The notes under the pieces are model-generated. The model was given only the letters and a program-made list of their open reading frames with translations, did not search any database and was not told where the DNA came from. The position numbers and the translations under genes are program-made. Shown here one piece after another: positions 1,787-16,179 of a stretch of 23,542 bases of DNA. The stretch comes from a virus. Position 1 is the stretch's first letter, and every line of letters begins with the position of its first letter. The DNA is taken from the IMG/VR virus record IMGVR_UViG_3300020472_000169, positions 1-23,542 of that record; one strand, 5' to 3'.

Positions 1787-2497
1787 ATGTCTTTACCAAA
1801 ACTGAATACGCCTGAATATAAATTAAATATTCCCTCAACTGATGAGGAAATTACATATAGACCTTTTCTAGTAAAAGAAGAAAAGGTATTATTAATTGCA
1901 CAAGAAACTGGAACTGATAAAGCAATTTATGATGCTATTAGAAATATCATTAAAAGTTGTACATTAGAAGATATTGAAATTGAAAGATTACCTTTATTTG
2001 ATATGGAGTATATTTTCTTAAATATACGAGCAAAATCTGTAGGGGAAATTGCAAAACTAAAAGTTAAATGTCCAGATGATGGAGAAACAGAAGTTGAAGT
2101 TGAAGTAGATTTGACTAAAATTGTTGTTGAAATGGATGAAAATCATGATGCTAGAATTAAACTAACAGATGATATAGGTGTGAGAATGACATATCCTACT
2201 TTTGGTACATTAACAAATCAAAAAACTCCACAAAAAGGGAAAGAAACAGAACAATTATTTAATATGATTTCTGGATGTATGTATCAAATATGGCAAGGAG
2301 AAGATACTTTTGATGTTATGGATTATTCTGAAAAGGAAAAGAAAGAATTCTTAGATAGTTTAAACCATACACAATTTGAAAAACTTCAAAAATTCTTTGA
2401 ATCTATGCCAACTTTAAAAAAGGAAATAGAGGTTACAAATCCAAAGACTAAAGTTACATCAACCCTTACATTACAGGGGTTGGCTTCTTTTTTTTAG
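1787..2497 (+). CDS. 26: Baseplate hub subunit / tail assembly chaperone, gp26-like (short form)
   Basis: This 236-residue protein matches the T4 gp26-type baseplate family in layout: an N-terminal segment with LNIPSTDEEITYRPF and LVKEEKVLLIAQETG, a middle strand-rich acidic part with KCPDDGETEVEVEVDL, and a C-terminal helical part ending at ASFF. T4 gp26 (208 residues) takes part in central hub assembly. The acidic, soluble composition and the place directly before the tape-measure gene also match the lambda gpG-type tail assembly chaperones. Its last sense codons are TCT TTT TTT followed by TAG, inside a run of eight T, and the -1 frame stays open for 66 more codons. This entry is the unshifted product; the extension is listed separately. 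Confidence 0.85.
   Translation: MSLPKLNTPEYKLNIPSTDEEITYRPFLVKEEKVLLIAQETGTDKAIYDAIRNIIKSCTLEDIEIERLPLFDMEYIFLNIRAKSVGEIAKLKVKCPDDGETEVEVEVDLTKIVVEMDENHDARIKLTDDIGVRMTYPTFGTLTNQKTPQKGKETEQLFNMISGCMYQIWQGEDTFDVMDYSEKEKKEFLDSLNHTQFEKLQKFFESMPTLKKEIEVTNPKTKVTSTLTLQGLASFF
2460..2482 (+). other. Hairpin just upstream of the T8 slippery run
   Basis: CAACCC at 2460-2465 pairs perfectly with GGGTTG at 2477-2482, with an 11-base loop. It stands 5 bases before the run of eight T at 2488-2495. The layout is that of an intrinsic terminator, or of a hairpin that stimulates slippage by ribosome or RNA polymerase. It lies inside the gp26-like reading frame. Confidence 0.5.
2488..2495 (+). other. Slippery T run, predicted -1 frameshift site
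   Basis: Eight T in a row contain a T TTT TTT heptamer at 2488-2494 in the right phase (codons TCT TTT TTT TAG), immediately before the gp26-like stop. A -1 slip reads TTA next and avoids the stop. Heptamers of the form X XXY YYZ are the established -1 slippery pattern; use of this one is inferred. Confidence 0.6.
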
Positions 2498-2694
2498 TAG
2501 CCCTTTCACACATTAACTTAGCAAATTATTATGATACAACTTTCAATATGGTTCAACATCATCATTGGAGTTTAACAGAAGTTGAAAATATGTTGCCTTG
2601 GGAAAGGGATATTTACGTTGATAAACTGGCAACCTTCATAAAAGAAGAAAACGAAAGAATAAAAGAACAAAATAGGAAAATGACACATGGCTGA
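2494..2694 (+). CDS. Predicted -1 frameshift extension of gp26-like protein (tail chaperone long form)
   Basis: In the -1 frame, 66 codons run from the T run to TGA at 2692-2694, giving a fused product of about 302 residues from the start at 1787. The extension looks like real protein: NYYDTTFNMVQHHHWSLTE, then a VENMLPWERDIYVDKL segment, then a charged helix with KEENERIKEQNRK. This resembles the helical T domain that -1 frameshifting adds to tail assembly chaperones such as lambda gpGT, which also sits directly before the tape measure. The stop overlaps the tape-measure ATG (2687). If read alone, the first in-frame ATG is at 2548, would give only 48 residues, and has no visible ribosome-binding site, so fusion is the better explanation. 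T4 itself has a separate gp51 hub-assembly protein; whether this is its counterpart I cannot say. Confidence 0.65.
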   Translation, partial: LVALSHINLANYYDTTFNMVQHHHWSLTEVENMLPWERDIYVDKLATFIKEENERIKEQNRKMTHG

Positions 2695-4690
2695 ACAAGC
2701 ACAAGAAAATACCTTACAATCAGTATTAGACCAACTAAGAGTATCTAATGAACTAGATACTGGACATAGTGTAGCAACTGAAAGAATATTTGGTAGTATT
2801 GATAAAAAACTAGAAGATCAAGCTAAAAATAATAAACAAGATAGTAAAGAACAAGAAGAACAAACTAAAAAATTAGGATTCATGTCAGGTTTGCTTTTGT
2901 CAGGTAAGAAATTAGCAGAGGCTGCGGCAAAGAGAGCTAAACTTGCAGGGGGGAAGATAAAAGATTTCGCAGGAAAACAAATTGATGGAATTAAAAAGGC
3001 AGCTGGTAATTTGTTGGATATGTTGATGAAAGGTTTAGGATTGCTTGCTCTTTGGGGTCTTTTTAAATGGATACAAACATGGGATATAGAATCTTTAATA
3101 GAAGGTGCAAAAAAGGTAGGAGAAGCAATAGCAGGAGTAAGTGATTTTATCTGGACTCTTTCTACTAGAATCGGTGCATGGTTAGGAATTAACAAGATTA
3201 GACAACTATTTGGTGGAAAAGAATCAAAACTTGTACATAAAATTAAAGGAATGATTTTATCTGCTAGAATATGGATGTTACAATTTACAGGAAAAGGTAG
3301 TTTCTTAGGAAAACTTGGAAATTTCTTTAAAAGTTTTATGGGATTGTTTGGTAAAATTCCAGGCATTGGAAAAATAATGGGATTCATAAAAGGTGCTGCT
3401 AAATTCTTAGGAAGAATTTTTGTTCCTGTTACTGTTATAATGGCACTTTGGGAAGCTGTTTCTGGATTTATGGATGGATTTAAATCTACAGAAGGAAATT
3501 GGGCCCAAAAAATATTAGGTGGTATCGGTGGTGCATTAAAGAGTTTATTAGACTTTTTCGTATTTGGTATTGCAGATATGGTTCAGTCTGCTATTGTTTG
3601 GTTACTTGAACTTTTTGGATTTGATTCTGCAGCTGTTGCAGTAGGTGATTTCAACCTTGTTGGAAGAATAAAAGATGCAGTATTTAAAGCAATAGACTTT
3701 GTAACAGATTTATTTATGTTTAAAGATACTAGTCTTTCTGGAATTTTTAAATCCCTTCTTGATATTTTAATGTTACCTCTTAACTTAGCAGTAAACTTTA
3801 TAAAAGACCTTTTTGGATGGGGAGATCCAAATGAACCATTTAAATTTTCTACATTTATTATAGGTGCAATTAATACTGTTATTGATTGGGTTAAAGGTTT
3901 ATTTGCATGGGGAGCTGAAGCTGGAGCTACAGAAGATGGTGGATGGTCAATATCAAAATTTATAGGTGAAGTTATAGACAAAGTTAAAGGATGGGTTACA
4001 GGACTTTTTACTTGGGCAGAACAAGAAGATGAAGGAGATGGTTTTATTTTAAAAACTGTTAAAGGTGCAATAACTGGGGCTAAAGAGTGGTTAGGTAAAA
4101 TGTTTAAGTTCGATAGTGCATCAGATATACTTGCATCTGCATTTAACGTATTAACATTCTTTCCTAATCTAATAAAAGATGCACTTCTTTCAGTCACAGA
4201 GTGGTTATTAAATCTATTTGGTTTTGGTGAAGAAGCTAAAAAAGTTGCAAATGCAAAGAATTTCACTATAGGTGGTATGTTAGTTTCTGTACTTGACAGT
4301 ATTGTAACTTGGTTAAGTGAGTTATTTAATTTTGATATTAAAAAAATAATAGCAGAATCACTTGGTGCATTAGGAGATGCAGGGAAGAAAGTTATGGGAT
4401 GGTTAGGTTTTGGTAGTAAAGAGGTAGATGCGGCAGCAACTGGAGGCCCAGTAGGTGCAGGAGCTCCTGTTCTTGTAGGTGAACATGGCCCTGAGTTATT
4501 TGTACCTTCTGCTTCTGGAAGAATTTTACCTAAGATGCAAACTGAAAATGCATTGTCTGGAATGAGTGGTGGAGGAGCAGCTCCAATAATTGCTCCTACC
4601 ACCAATGTTACTAATGGGTCTACTACTGTTGCAATGCCCCAAAGTTCTATAAACCCTGCTAATGACAAATACTTCAGAACAGAGTTTTAA
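2687..4690 (+). CDS. Tail tape-measure protein
   Basis: This 667-residue protein probably sets tail length and passes through the tube during DNA entry; T4 gp29 (590 residues) has this role. The N-terminus (to about residue 65) is polar and helical. Several hydrophobic or amphipathic segments follow, for example LLDMLMKGLGLLALWGLF near 110 and FVPVTVIMALWEAVSGF near 245. From about residue 304 to 575 there are nine degenerate repeats of roughly 34 residues, each ending in a W-x-x-x-LF-x-(F/W)-like motif. The C-terminus (about 583-617) carries PVLVGEHGPELFVPSASGRI, a motif found near the end of many tape-measure proteins. The ATG overlaps the end of the gp26 -1 extension, so translation may be coupled. 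It is the last gene of the + strand tail block. It could be called gp29 by position, but the sequence alone does not prove that. Confidence 0.78.
   Translation: MAEQAQENTLQSVLDQLRVSNELDTGHSVATERIFGSIDKKLEDQAKNNKQDSKEQEEQTKKLGFMSGLLLSGKKLAEAAAKRAKLAGGKIKDFAGKQIDGIKKAAGNLLDMLMKGLGLLALWGLFKWIQTWDIESLIEGAKKVGEAIAGVSDFIWTLSTRIGAWLGINKIRQLFGGKESKLVHKIKGMILSARIWMLQFTGKGSFLGKLGNFFKSFMGLFGKIPGIGKIMGFIKGAAKFLGRIFVPVTVIMALWEAVSGFMDGFKSTEGNWAQKILGGIGGALKSLLDFFVFGIADMVQSAIVWLLELFGFDSAAVAVGDFNLVGRIKDAVFKAIDFVTDLFMFKDTSLSGIFKSLLDILMLPLNLAVNFIKDLFGWGDPNEPFKFSTFIIGAINTVIDWVKGLFAWGAEAGATEDGGWSISKFIGEVIDKVKGWVTGLFTWAEQEDEGDGFILKTVKGAITGAKEWLGKMFKFDSASDILASAFNVLTFFPNLIKDALLSVTEWLLNLFGFGEEAKKVANAKNFTIGGMLVSVLDSIVTWLSELFNFDIKKIIAESLGALGDAGKKVMGWLGFGSKEVDAAATGGPVGAGAPVLVGEHGPELFVPSASGRILPKMQTENALSGMSGGGAAPIIAPTTNVTNGSTTVAMPQSSINPANDKYFRTEF
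3590..4415 (+). repeat. Nine degenerate ~34-residue repeats in the tape-measure gene
   Basis: Repeat cores, by residue of the tape-measure protein, start near 304 (VWLLELFGFD), 337 (DFVTDLFMFK), 371 (NFIKDLFGWG), 400 (DWVKGLFAWG), 435 (GWVTGLFTWA), 467 (EWLGKMFKFD), 505 (EWLLNLFGFG), 541 (TWLSELFNFD) and 571 (a shortened GWLGFG). Spacing ranges from 29 to 38 residues. Repetition is seen in protein rather than in exact DNA. Confidence 0.65.
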
Positions 4691-12524: not shown

Positions 12525-12553
12525 AGTATAACATTATAAAAATGAAATGTCAA
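12525..12553 (-). promoter_or_regulatory. Sigma70-like promoter of the RNase H operon
   Basis: On the - strand TTGACA (12553-12548) and TATACT (12530-12525) are separated by exactly 17 bases. The -35 is preceded by AAAAGAC, the same extension as at 6610-6638. The -35 overlaps the stop of the SegE-like gene. Confidence 0.75.
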
Positions 12554-12978
12554 GTCTTTTCTTCCATTAATGTTGAAAAATATCTGTTCATGATATTGTC
12601 GTTATAATAAAGCTTCTCACCTTTATCATCAACTTCTTCTAAAACATTGTGGTTGAATAACAATTTAGTTTCATTGTAATTTACCTGACCTTTCTTTTTC
12701 CAAAGACCAAGTATTTCTCTCTTGAATCTGGCTCCCCCAAATTCCTGTACTAAATGTTGAACTTTTTTAGATGAACTGTAATAGGTTTTCCAATCGCTCT
12801 CTGAACGTACTCTCCTTCTCTGACCTTTTTTCTTTCGGTTTTGGTAGAAGTATTTTCTACCGATATATTTTTTTCCATTCTCAAGGTCTGTCAAAAGATA
12901 GCAGAAACCAAAATAATCTTCTATATTTTCACTTTCAAATGCTACACCATCGTATAGCCAAGGGTTTTCGTAACTCAT
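12550..12978 (-). CDS. SegE-like GIY-YIG endonuclease family protein
   Basis: This 142-residue protein matches the SegE-type GIY-YIG family found in many phages. The two signature strands are FCYLLTD near 24-31 (GIY position) and KKYIGRKYF near 36-44 (YIG position), followed by a basic stretch, SDWKTYYSSS near 60-70, RFKREILGLW near 83-93 and, at the end, YYNDNIMNRYFS. It may nick or cut DNA, either as a homing-type enzyme or in host DNA degradation; which one is unknown. GGAG lies before the ATG. It has its own late-type box (CATAAATA, 12997-13004) and an inverted repeat around the start. Confidence 0.78.
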   Translation of the reverse strand: MSYENPWLYDGVAFESENIEDYFGFCYLLTDLENGKKYIGRKYFYQNRKKKGQRRRVRSESDWKTYYSSSKKVQHLVQEFGGARFKREILGLWKKKGQVNYNETKLLFNHNVLEEVDDKGEKLYYNDNIMNRYFSTLMEEKT

Positions 12979-13183: not shown

Positions 13184-15169
13184 TTAAATGATTTCGCAGC
13201 TATCACCAGAACACGCAACTGTTTGCGCCCCTGTAGTGTTATCTTCCGTTTCATATTTAGATAATTTAGAATAGTCAATAATTGGAAATGATTCTAGCAT
13301 TTCATTATAAGTTTTCTCGTCAATTTCCTCGTAAGGGGCAAGCTGATAGATGTGGTCATCTTTAGGTAAGAAACTCACCCCCACTAAATCGTCAAAGTTT
13401 TCGTAAACAAAATGTCCAACTTCTAGCCATTCATCTGGCTTGACATATATTGTTGCTGATACTGTATGTTCTGTGTAATTATGTTTTATCTTTAACCATT
13501 GTTTTAACTGAGAAATTGCATCAACATCTTTTACCATGACAGAATTTTCTGGTGCTTTTACTGGAAATTCACACACCCATGTCATTGCAGTTTCTTCTGG
13601 TTGTCCTACTTCTGGTAAAAACTTTACACCTTGATCTCTCATCATTTTAAATAATGGATCTGTAGCAGATATTCGCACCCTTCGTATATAATGAGGTGCA
13701 AATCTTGGATGAAAACCAGATGCAGAATTTACCAGAGTTGATACTGTACCACTAGGTTTTGTGGTTGTAATGGCTACTGATCTGTTTATCTTCAATCGTT
13801 CTGCAGCTTCTACGTTTACTCCCACAGAATAGTCTCTAAGAGCTTGTAAGTTATCTTCAGTTAAAACATCTGGATTGTCCATTTGTCCTGTCATGGAAAC
13901 ACCTAGAAGCCTTTCTTCTTCTGCATTCTTTTTCCAATCATCATGTAAGTCATCTAAGAGTGCAAAATTAGTCAATGTGGATTGTATCGTACCAATCAAA
14001 GTTGCAACCTTGATTTTCTCCATTAATGTCTCAAGTGTATCTTCGGCCCTTATAACCACTTCTGTAAGGTTACAGAACCCTCTAGGTCGCAATATTATTT
14101 CACCGCATGGGTTAGTAGTCCAATCTTGTCTCTTGCGCCTTCGTTTTGGGATTAAACTATTGATAGAATAACGATTAAAAATTCCACGTTCTCCTGTACC
14201 ACTCTCTGCAAGTGCTAACCACTCCTTCATGAACTCTATGGAATTTGGCTTAGAATCATAGATTGCACTATTGTTACTCATAGCTCTATGTCCGTTAGTA
14301 ATCCAGAATTGTCCTTGTTTAGCATCTCTCATTCCGTTATCATGAAGATCTGAAAGTGTGATAATCGATGACCTTCTAACTCCACCTACAACTACTGAAT
14401 TTGCAATTTTGGTAACAATATCAAATGCATTTATGGAACTCAACTTTCTGTCTCTATGTGCCTCAACCATGTGTTTGATGAAGTGTAAAGTCTCATCAAG
14501 TGGCCCCGGCCCAGATGACCTTCCACCGAAAGTTTTTAGTCTTGCTCCTTGTGGTCTAAGTTTGGATAAATCCCATTCAACATCGAATCCTTCCCACATT
14601 GCTTGACACATTTCCATTGTTCCTATTGCCCATCCTTCTTTAGAATCTTCAAATACAATCGTTTTCGTTTGACCATTTAGTTTCTTTACTTTAGGAATCT
14701 TTTCTACATATTTCTTGGACACATCTATACCTACTCCTGTTCCACTCATCAACAGAAAATAAACTTCTGCAAATGAACTAAGGGAATCTATAGGTACTGT
14801 AGAACAATTATAAATTGCAACATTGTTAAGAGTAGCTGGTTTTCCAGCAGTCCACAATAATCTCATTGAAGGCATTACCTTCATCTCTAAAATGTACTGG
14901 TGTATTAATTCGTAATCTGATTTTTTTAGTTTATTCTTACTAACTTTTTTAAGGTAATCCACACATCGATTTACAGTCTCATCCCATGTTTCTCTACGAC
15001 CTTTGTCATCATCCCATCTTGAGTATGTTCTGTAATATACAAATTTACTCATTTCGTTTTCAAAGGGATCTATTTTTGGGGCGGGTTCTTCTTTAATTTC
15101 TTTTTGGGGGGAACTGAATACATTGGCAAATAATTTTGATTTCGTTGTTGGTTGTACTTGAGGGTTCAT
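13184..15169 (-). CDS. nrdJ: Class II (B12-dependent) ribonucleoside-triphosphate reductase
   Basis: This enzyme of about 661 residues makes deoxynucleoside triphosphates using adenosylcobalamin as the radical source. Numbered from the ATG at 15169, the redox cysteine C122 is in YNCSTVP, the thiyl-radical cysteine C355 and E357 are in NPCGEI, the partner C366 is in GFCNLTE, and the C-terminal relay pair is C653 and C658 in ACSGDSCEII. Other family landmarks are MSGTGVGIDVS, VGGVRRSSII and TTKPSGTVSTLVNSASGFHP. It is the monomeric Lactobacillus leichmannii type (739 residues there). I prefer 15169 because it forms ATGA with the primase stop and has a purine-rich GGAAG upstream; an earlier ATG at 15181 would add four residues and has no such signal. 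T4 itself uses class I NrdAB. Confidence 0.92.
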   Translation of the reverse strand: MNPQVQPTTKSKLFANVFSSPQKEIKEEPAPKIDPFENEMSKFVYYRTYSRWDDDKGRRETWDETVNRCVDYLKKVSKNKLKKSDYELIHQYILEMKVMPSMRLLWTAGKPATLNNVAIYNCSTVPIDSLSSFAEVYFLLMSGTGVGIDVSKKYVEKIPKVKKLNGQTKTIVFEDSKEGWAIGTMEMCQAMWEGFDVEWDLSKLRPQGARLKTFGGRSSGPGPLDETLHFIKHMVEAHRDRKLSSINAFDIVTKIANSVVVGGVRRSSIITLSDLHDNGMRDAKQGQFWITNGHRAMSNNSAIYDSKPNSIEFMKEWLALAESGTGERGIFNRYSINSLIPKRRRKRQDWTTNPCGEIILRPRGFCNLTEVVIRAEDTLETLMEKIKVATLIGTIQSTLTNFALLDDLHDDWKKNAEEERLLGVSMTGQMDNPDVLTEDNLQALRDYSVGVNVEAAERLKINRSVAITTTKPSGTVSTLVNSASGFHPRFAPHYIRRVRISATDPLFKMMRDQGVKFLPEVGQPEETAMTWVCEFPVKAPENSVMVKDVDAISQLKQWLKIKHNYTEHTVSATIYVKPDEWLEVGHFVYENFDDLVGVSFLPKDDHIYQLAPYEEIDEKTYNEMLESFPIIDYSKLSKYETEDNTTGAQTVACSGDSCEII

Positions 15170-16179
15170 ATTTTCTTCCATTGATTAATTTTTAAGTATG
15201 CGTTAAGTCCACTATAAGTATGCACATCAATAAATTGCTTAACATTCTTGATTCCCGAAAGAACCATATCATTGATGTCTTTTTGTTTTAAATCTTGAGG
15301 CCAGACTACAATATTATAATTCCTGTCAACGGATTTGAACATCCGTTCTACTGTGTGTTTATTTCTGGGCTCATTATCATATATCACAGTTGTTGAGTTG
15401 GTACTCAATTCTAGTAAGTTAAGATCTGCTCCAGCAACTGCCATACAGTTATCTATAAAGAGAGAATCTAACGGGCCTTCAACGATGTACACTTGTGAAT
15501 TATAATCAATTCGTTCTAGACCATAGATTTTCTCTCGTTCCGAAACAATCTTTAGAGTGATATATCTAGGTTCTTCCTTACCAAAAGCACGCCCTTGATA
15601 AGCAAAGATTTCTCCTGACTTGTCGAAAAAAGGGATAACAAGTCGTGGATAATCTATATTTATACTCTTGAATTTCTCTGGAAATATTGTGTTTGACCAC
15701 TCGTAAAACTTATCTGCAAAGTACAATTTATCCCAATGTTTTTTAGGAATCTGTCTATTTTCTAGATACTGTATTGCAGGATGGCCATCTTCCAGATCAC
15801 TAAACTTGACTAACTTATCCAAGTGTTTATTCATGGATTTGTCAAACTTAGGAGCTTCAAATGTAAAGGGGGATTTGTCAGGAATAGGAGTATTCCCTTG
15901 AGTTTCACCTTCCTTATACTTTTCTACACGATACTCAGTATAAAGACCATGATCTATATTTTTGAGGAAATTATTGAAAGTAAGACCTACACCACAATTA
16001 TGACACTTGTAGAAAAAAGATGCCTTCTTGCGGTATACAAAACCTCTAGCCTTATTCTTATGTTTTTTGGAATCCCCACATATGGGGCAACGAAAGTTCC
16101 AAAGATTATCCCTAACTTTCTTAAATTTTTCCACCCTAGAGGTACATAGATTTATGTACTTCTGGTCAATATAGCTCAT
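15166..16179 (-). CDS. 61: DNA primase, gp61
   Basis: This 337-residue enzyme makes RNA primers for lagging-strand synthesis with the gp41 helicase; T4 gp61 has 342 residues. An N-terminal zinc-binding domain has C31/C34 (CPICGDSKKHK) and C59/C62 (CHNCG). The catalytic TOPRIM domain has VEGPLDS with E234 and D238, and an acidic pair D268/E270 in IYDNEPRNK. The link between them includes YPRLVIPFFDKSGEIFAYQG, usual for phage primases. The stop overlaps the ribonucleotide reductase start, so primer and nucleotide supply genes are translated together. The coiled-coil membrane gene lies 26 bases upstream. Confidence 0.93.
   Translation of the reverse strand: MSYIDQKYINLCTSRVEKFKKVRDNLWNFRCPICGDSKKHKNKARGFVYRKKASFFYKCHNCGVGLTFNNFLKNIDHGLYTEYRVEKYKEGETQGNTPIPDKSPFTFEAPKFDKSMNKHLDKLVKFSDLEDGHPAIQYLENRQIPKKHWDKLYFADKFYEWSNTIFPEKFKSINIDYPRLVIPFFDKSGEIFAYQGRAFGKEEPRYITLKIVSEREKIYGLERIDYNSQVYIVEGPLDSLFIDNCMAVAGADLNLLELSTNSTTVIYDNEPRNKHTVERMFKSVDRNYNIVVWPQDLKQKDINDMVLSGIKNVKQFIDVHTYSGLNAYLKINQWKKI

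Follow-up and report, generated by a model that had tools for sequence, protein, structure and literature searches.

A gp26-type gene of a T4-like marine phage predicted to encode both forms of a tail assembly chaperone by -1 ribosomal frameshifting

Directly upstream of the tape measure gene in a 23,542-nucleotide stretch of viral DNA (IMG/VR record IMGVR_UViG_3300020472_000169, positions 1 to 23,542; hereafter the window), a gene of the T4 gp26 type stops inside a run of eight T, and the -1 frame stays open up to the tape measure gene. What does this locus make, and by what route? We conclude that a marine T4-like phage very probably uses this locus as its tail assembly chaperone (TAC) gene, from which a short form (TAC-N) and a long form (TAC-NC) would both be produced by -1 ribosomal slippage.

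The gp26-type open reading frame (1787-2497, + strand) encodes 236 amino acids and ends at a TAG codon (2495-2497). Its last 0-frame codons read TCT TTT TTT TAG, so that the T run (2488-2495) holds a T TTT TTT heptamer at 2488-2494, phased X XXY YYZ as a -1 slippery site requires. Read from position 2494, the -1 frame runs through 66 codons to a TGA (2692-2694), overlapping by 8 nt the tape measure gene, whose ATG lies at 2687. An earlier, sequence-only reading of this DNA had described the in-phase heptamer and the 66-codon frame running over the tape measure start, and both descriptions were confirmed. Adjacency to the tape measure gene is the gene order of the TAC class. The features are as follows.

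1787..2497, + strand: gp26-type gene, predicted TAC-N, 236 aa (PF12322, phrog_150, AlphaFold2 model with pLDDT 90.5, PDB fold matches)
2475..2479, + strand: internal Shine-Dalgarno-like AGGGG, 8 nt before the heptamer (anti-Shine-Dalgarno duplex of -6.0 kcal/mol; pairing beyond synonymous shuffles)
2488..2494, + strand: slippery heptamer T TTT TTT, predicted -1 ribosomal frameshift site (sequence; conserved in phase)
2494..2694, + strand: -1 frame extension, putative C domain of TAC-NC and counterpart of the gp51 C-terminal domain, 66 aa plus stop (phrog_634, dN/dS)
1787..2694, + strand: predicted frameshift product TAC-NC, 302 aa, read from 1787 to 2494 and then in the -1 frame from 2494 (virtual-fusion profile collinear with T4 gp51)
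2687..4690, + strand: tape measure protein gene (phrog_5062, tail length tape measure, E = 9.9e-6; position)

Directly upstream of the gp26-type gene lie a gene for a gp2-like DNA end protector (10-537, +) and a gene of the tail tube family (546-1757, +), an order also found in Aeromonas phages. Elsewhere, the window encodes a class II (B12-dependent) ribonucleotide reductase (13184-15181, -; PF17975, PF21995) and a protein (12550-12978, -) matching both phrog_447, named 'NAD synthetase', and homing endonuclease families; going by this protein, the name of phrog_447 looks like a mis-annotation.

If the ribosome slips at the T run, both the run and the -1 frame should be kept among relatives, as the sequence-only reading had proposed to check. 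We examined 133 loci with a readable gp26 stop, comprising viral contigs, reference genomes and the window. The heptamer stood in phase at the gp26 end in 118 of them; the other 15 were 14 T4-type loci and Vibrio D507. After five more references were added, there were 118 distinct fusion sequences, which clustering at <70% identity reduced to 65 clusters. All 118 carried the heptamer in phase, spelled T TTT TTC (89 sequences), T TTT TTT (23) or T TTT TTA (6), and in none of the 65 clusters was a synonymous codon used that would break it. In 65/65 clusters the codon preceding the heptamer ended in T, where 41.3 were expected (p = 3e-13); TTT likewise encoded the first Phe in 65/65, against a background of 0.73 (p = 1e-9). 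These p-values, like those for the element described below, are optimistic because the sequences share kinship. Among 231 Phe-Phe dipeptides in other long open reading frames of the same loci, only 10 were spelled T TTT TT[T/C]. Immediately preceding the heptamer, 18 of the 118 sequences have a stop in the -1 frame, which in them excludes entry into that frame from any point farther upstream. Within the window's own clade we looked for relatives lacking the T run, having stops in the -1 frame or sharing a conserved separate start for the extension, and found none.

This conservation bears on two other accounts of the interrupted frame. Homopolymer runs are error-prone, and the stop might be a sequencing error in one continuous gene; the probability of this is negligible, since over 100 contigs, as well as isolate genomes of several families, are interrupted in the same way at this site. 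RNA polymerase might instead slip on the T run, so that the long form would come from altered mRNA. Eight T, as in the window, are long enough for this in principle, but the run is only six T long in 50 of the 65 clusters and starts exactly at the first base of the heptamer in all 65, while codon phase and an upstream Shine-Dalgarno element are irrelevant to transcription; we regard polymerase slippage as very improbable.

Ribosomal slippage is further favored by what precedes the heptamer. In the window, AGGGG at 2475-2479 can form a duplex with the anti-Shine-Dalgarno sequence of 16S rRNA, and across the relatives an 8-mer whose last base lies about 7 nt ahead of the heptamer has a mean pairing energy of -5.7 kcal/mol with that sequence, reaching -4 kcal/mol or stronger in 80% of the 65 clusters. 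Allowing for shared kinship, this pairing exceeds what synonymous codon choice would give, with 0 of 1000 shuffles of the 65 clusters as strong, and G is the third base of the Glu, Lys or Gln codon preceding a conserved Gly in 29 of 46 cases versus 12 expected. The element is present in distant groups too. A general downstream hairpin was rejected as part of the signal; there is none in the window (z about 0), and only a subset of relatives has one. When 50-nt downstream folds were compared with shuffles, the slip site itself was the point of greatest stability (mean z = -1.0), with z < -2 in 20% of relatives, and S-PM2 has a 14-bp stem downstream of the site.

The sequence-only reading had credited the extension with convincing protein content, and this judgment stands. 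Against moderately diverged relatives of the window, dN/dS of the extension is about 0.1-0.3, close pairs (e.g., L001 and L004) having too few changes to judge, and on these codon comparisons the extension is under purifying selection. It matches phrog_634, 'baseplate hub assembly catalyst', the gp51 family (E = 1.9e-25). An in-phase heptamer followed by a selected -1 extension is the recoding signature expected of short and long forms sharing an N-terminus.

The extension could, however, be a separate small gene, gp51, translated by coupled re-initiation at the gp26 stop. It is annotated as its own short gene in S-PM2, phiN3, S-N03 and D483; an ATG occurs soon after the slip site in 36 of the 118 relatives; and TGATG or TAATG stop-start overlaps in phiN3, Atu_ph04, PhiW-14 and VH7D indicate that a separate product could also be made there. 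Yet 63 of the 118 distinct sequences, the window and 62 others, lack any ATG, GTG or TTG within the open -1 frame as far as 13 codons past the slip site. Genomes that do have an ATG there still keep the in-phase heptamer, and the Shine-Dalgarno-like element is too distant from those ATGs to serve them (24 nt in S-PM2). A separate gene is thus an unlikely explanation of the extension. It gains from the Ackermannviridae (L141, L142, L147) and Vibrio D507 (L039), which have no heptamer and in which the extension starts at a TAATG overlap; PWKp5 and EP75 have TAATT at the gp26 stop, and starting there would mean using ATT, a rare start codon. The sequences of these phages suggest that re-initiation is the likelier route there. 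Tenacibaculum phage PTm5 (L143, 1648-2755) differs again: relative to gp26, its gp51-like extension lies in the +1 and not the -1 frame, possibly reached by a +1 frameshift or from a separate start.

What would the short and long products do? The identification of the gene as gp26-type was upheld by a full-length match to PF12322 (E = 6e-65, profile positions 1-218 of 219) and by phrog_150 (E = 2.7e-70). No lambda-type G or T family was hit in Pfam or PHROG, and a sequence search of the PDB with gp26, the extension, T4 gp26 and T4 gp51 returned no meaningful match. TACs show low sequence similarity among themselves. For the AlphaFold2 model of gp26, built with 76 homologues (pLDDT 90.5), the best PDB matches were 3fgx (Z = 8.3), 2ob9 (Z = 7.8), 3klu (Z = 7.2) and 5ir0 (Z = 5.3), the next reaching only 2.6; these Z-scores are middling, and the matches cover residues 1-95 only. 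Foldseek also placed 2ob9 first, but with E = 1.7. 2ob9 is the HK97 tail assembly chaperone gp13 and 3klu is YqbN; 3fgx and 3klu we take to belong to the tail assembly chaperone group. A T4-type gp51 model matched no tail assembly chaperone in the PDB, a result that carries no weight against the chaperone reading. Because tail assembly chaperones rank highest among the PDB structures matching the gp26 model, we assign gp26 as the putative TAC-N and gp26 plus extension (302 aa) as the putative TAC-NC. The sequence-only reading had likened the locus to the gpG/gpGT chaperones of lambda-like phages, a layout that the modeled fold and the adjoining tape measure gene bear out; its label 'baseplate gene' is misleading, the product being best read, from the model, as a chaperone. 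The fourth match, 5ir0, is ORF19 of a Vibrio cholerae PICI-like element, a phage-satellite protein of unknown function, and this ORF19 might act on tail assembly of the helper phage.

In T4 itself the same parts are arranged differently. T4 gp26 matches the window's short form, and T4 gp51 matches the short form plus the extension over almost its whole length, with PF12322 at E = 3.9e-52 and phrog_634 at E = 1.2e-23. The profile built from the marine virtual fusions covers residues 15-246 of T4 gp51, passing straight through the junction (E = 3.7e-12, Z set to 1), and the T4-type gp51 model has the helix and strand order of the gp26 model plus three terminal helices. Because gp51 is collinear with the virtual fusion across the junction, T4 appears to hold the short and long forms as two genes, gp26 and a paralogous in-frame fusion, gp51. 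The window, in contrast, has one gene with a -1 extension; unlike T4 gp51, this extension has neither its own gp26-like N-terminus nor an ATG, GTG or TTG start, and would use gp26 as its N-terminus. The EFF peptide is retained in T4 gp26 but encoded there as GAG TTC TTT, and neither T4 gene has the heptamer. A tree separates T4 gp26, T4 gp51 and the single-gene group, with long branches meeting, so that it does not settle the timing of the duplication. T4 gp51 is essential and of unknown function, needed for assembly but not found in the particle (PMC3004832), which suits a chaperone. The profile check proposed by the sequence-only reading thus came out in part: the extension was placed in the gp51 family and showed no match to the lambda-type T domain.

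We propose that most ribosomes would terminate at the TAG, giving gp26 as TAC-N, and that a minority, with the internal AGGGG paired to 16S rRNA, would slip back one base at TTT TTT, pass the stop and append the 66-residue gp51-type domain to give TAC-NC. By analogy with lambda gpG/gpGT, both forms would then cover the tape measure protein, the product of the overlapping gene that follows; coating would fall to the short part, and recruitment of tube subunits at the hub to the C domain.

This proposal may extend to annotations in other phages. Cyanophage gp51 has been described as lacking its first ~200 residues, and Aeh1 as lacking gp51 (PMC3037559). If the cyanophage genes are frameshifted, the 'truncation' is explained, since gp26 supplies the residues that seemed absent. 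In Aeromonas phages Ah1 and CC2 and Cronobacter phage LPCS28 the heptamer is followed by an unannotated extension, from which we infer that the 'missing' gp51 of the Aeromonas phages of the Aeh1 group is an unrecognized -1 half. The T4-type phages, like the Ackermannviridae and Vibrio D507, lack the T run and appear to have another route to the long form or the extension. On balance we favor one joint reading. The Kyanoviridae, the non-T4-type Straboviridae and several rhizobial and pseudomonad phages would make the TAC through a conserved dnaX-like signal (an internal Shine-Dalgarno element and T TTT TTN, sometimes with a hairpin); the T4-type group would have replaced this signal by a gene pair and the Ackermannviridae by stop-start re-initiation; and the 'truncated' and 'missing' gp51 proteins would be annotation artefacts of one ancestral recoding event. 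Such a reading would account for gp51, an essential T4 assembly factor long described with unknown function, and would put right hundreds of phage annotations where one half of a chaperone either appears as a tiny baseplate gene or is left out. There are apparently three natural solutions, frameshifting, re-initiation and gene duplication, for supplying the same chaperone parts, and the need for a fixed ratio of short to long form is therefore testable in T4 itself.

The T4-like version of this device is not new. Vladimirov, Gautam and Davidson (2022, Virology 566:9-15) identified T4-like TACs, as cited in PMC10885494 and PMC12846349. PRFect, citing that work, states that some T4-like phages carry a short and a longer fused TAC gene instead of frameshifting (PMC10885494), and poly-T -1 signals in T4-like TAC-N genes are ascribed to that study in the Adele phage paper (PMC12846349). 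The view of the sequence-only reading that no frameshift had been described for the gp26 type is thereby overtaken, and the novelty of the present locus, as far as these citing papers convey, is limited. The internal Shine-Dalgarno element and the breadth of conservation are absent from the citing passages; neither these nor the exceptions nor the explanation of the gp51 'truncation' are described in the literature searched, and the 2022 paper, known to us through the papers that cite it, may contain some of them. A poly-T -1 signal in the TAC-N gene is common to the published T4-like TACs, as cited, and to the window, which adds a new uncultivated member.

The signal resembles that of E. coli dnaX, which comprises A AAA AAG, an internal Shine-Dalgarno element about 10 nt upstream and a downstream hairpin. 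The window likewise has an internal Shine-Dalgarno-like element upstream of its heptamer, and some relatives have a downstream hairpin; it differs in its T TTT TTN heptamer and in having no hairpin. In lambda gpG/gpGT and relatives, for which the reference study is reportedly that of Xu, Hendrix and Duda (2004), a short form and its -1 extension likewise immediately precede the tape measure gene, and the TAC fold is known by structure from HK97 gp13. The window differs in that its proteins belong to the PF12322 and phrog_634 families of a T4-like phage, and in that its slippery sequence is a run of T.
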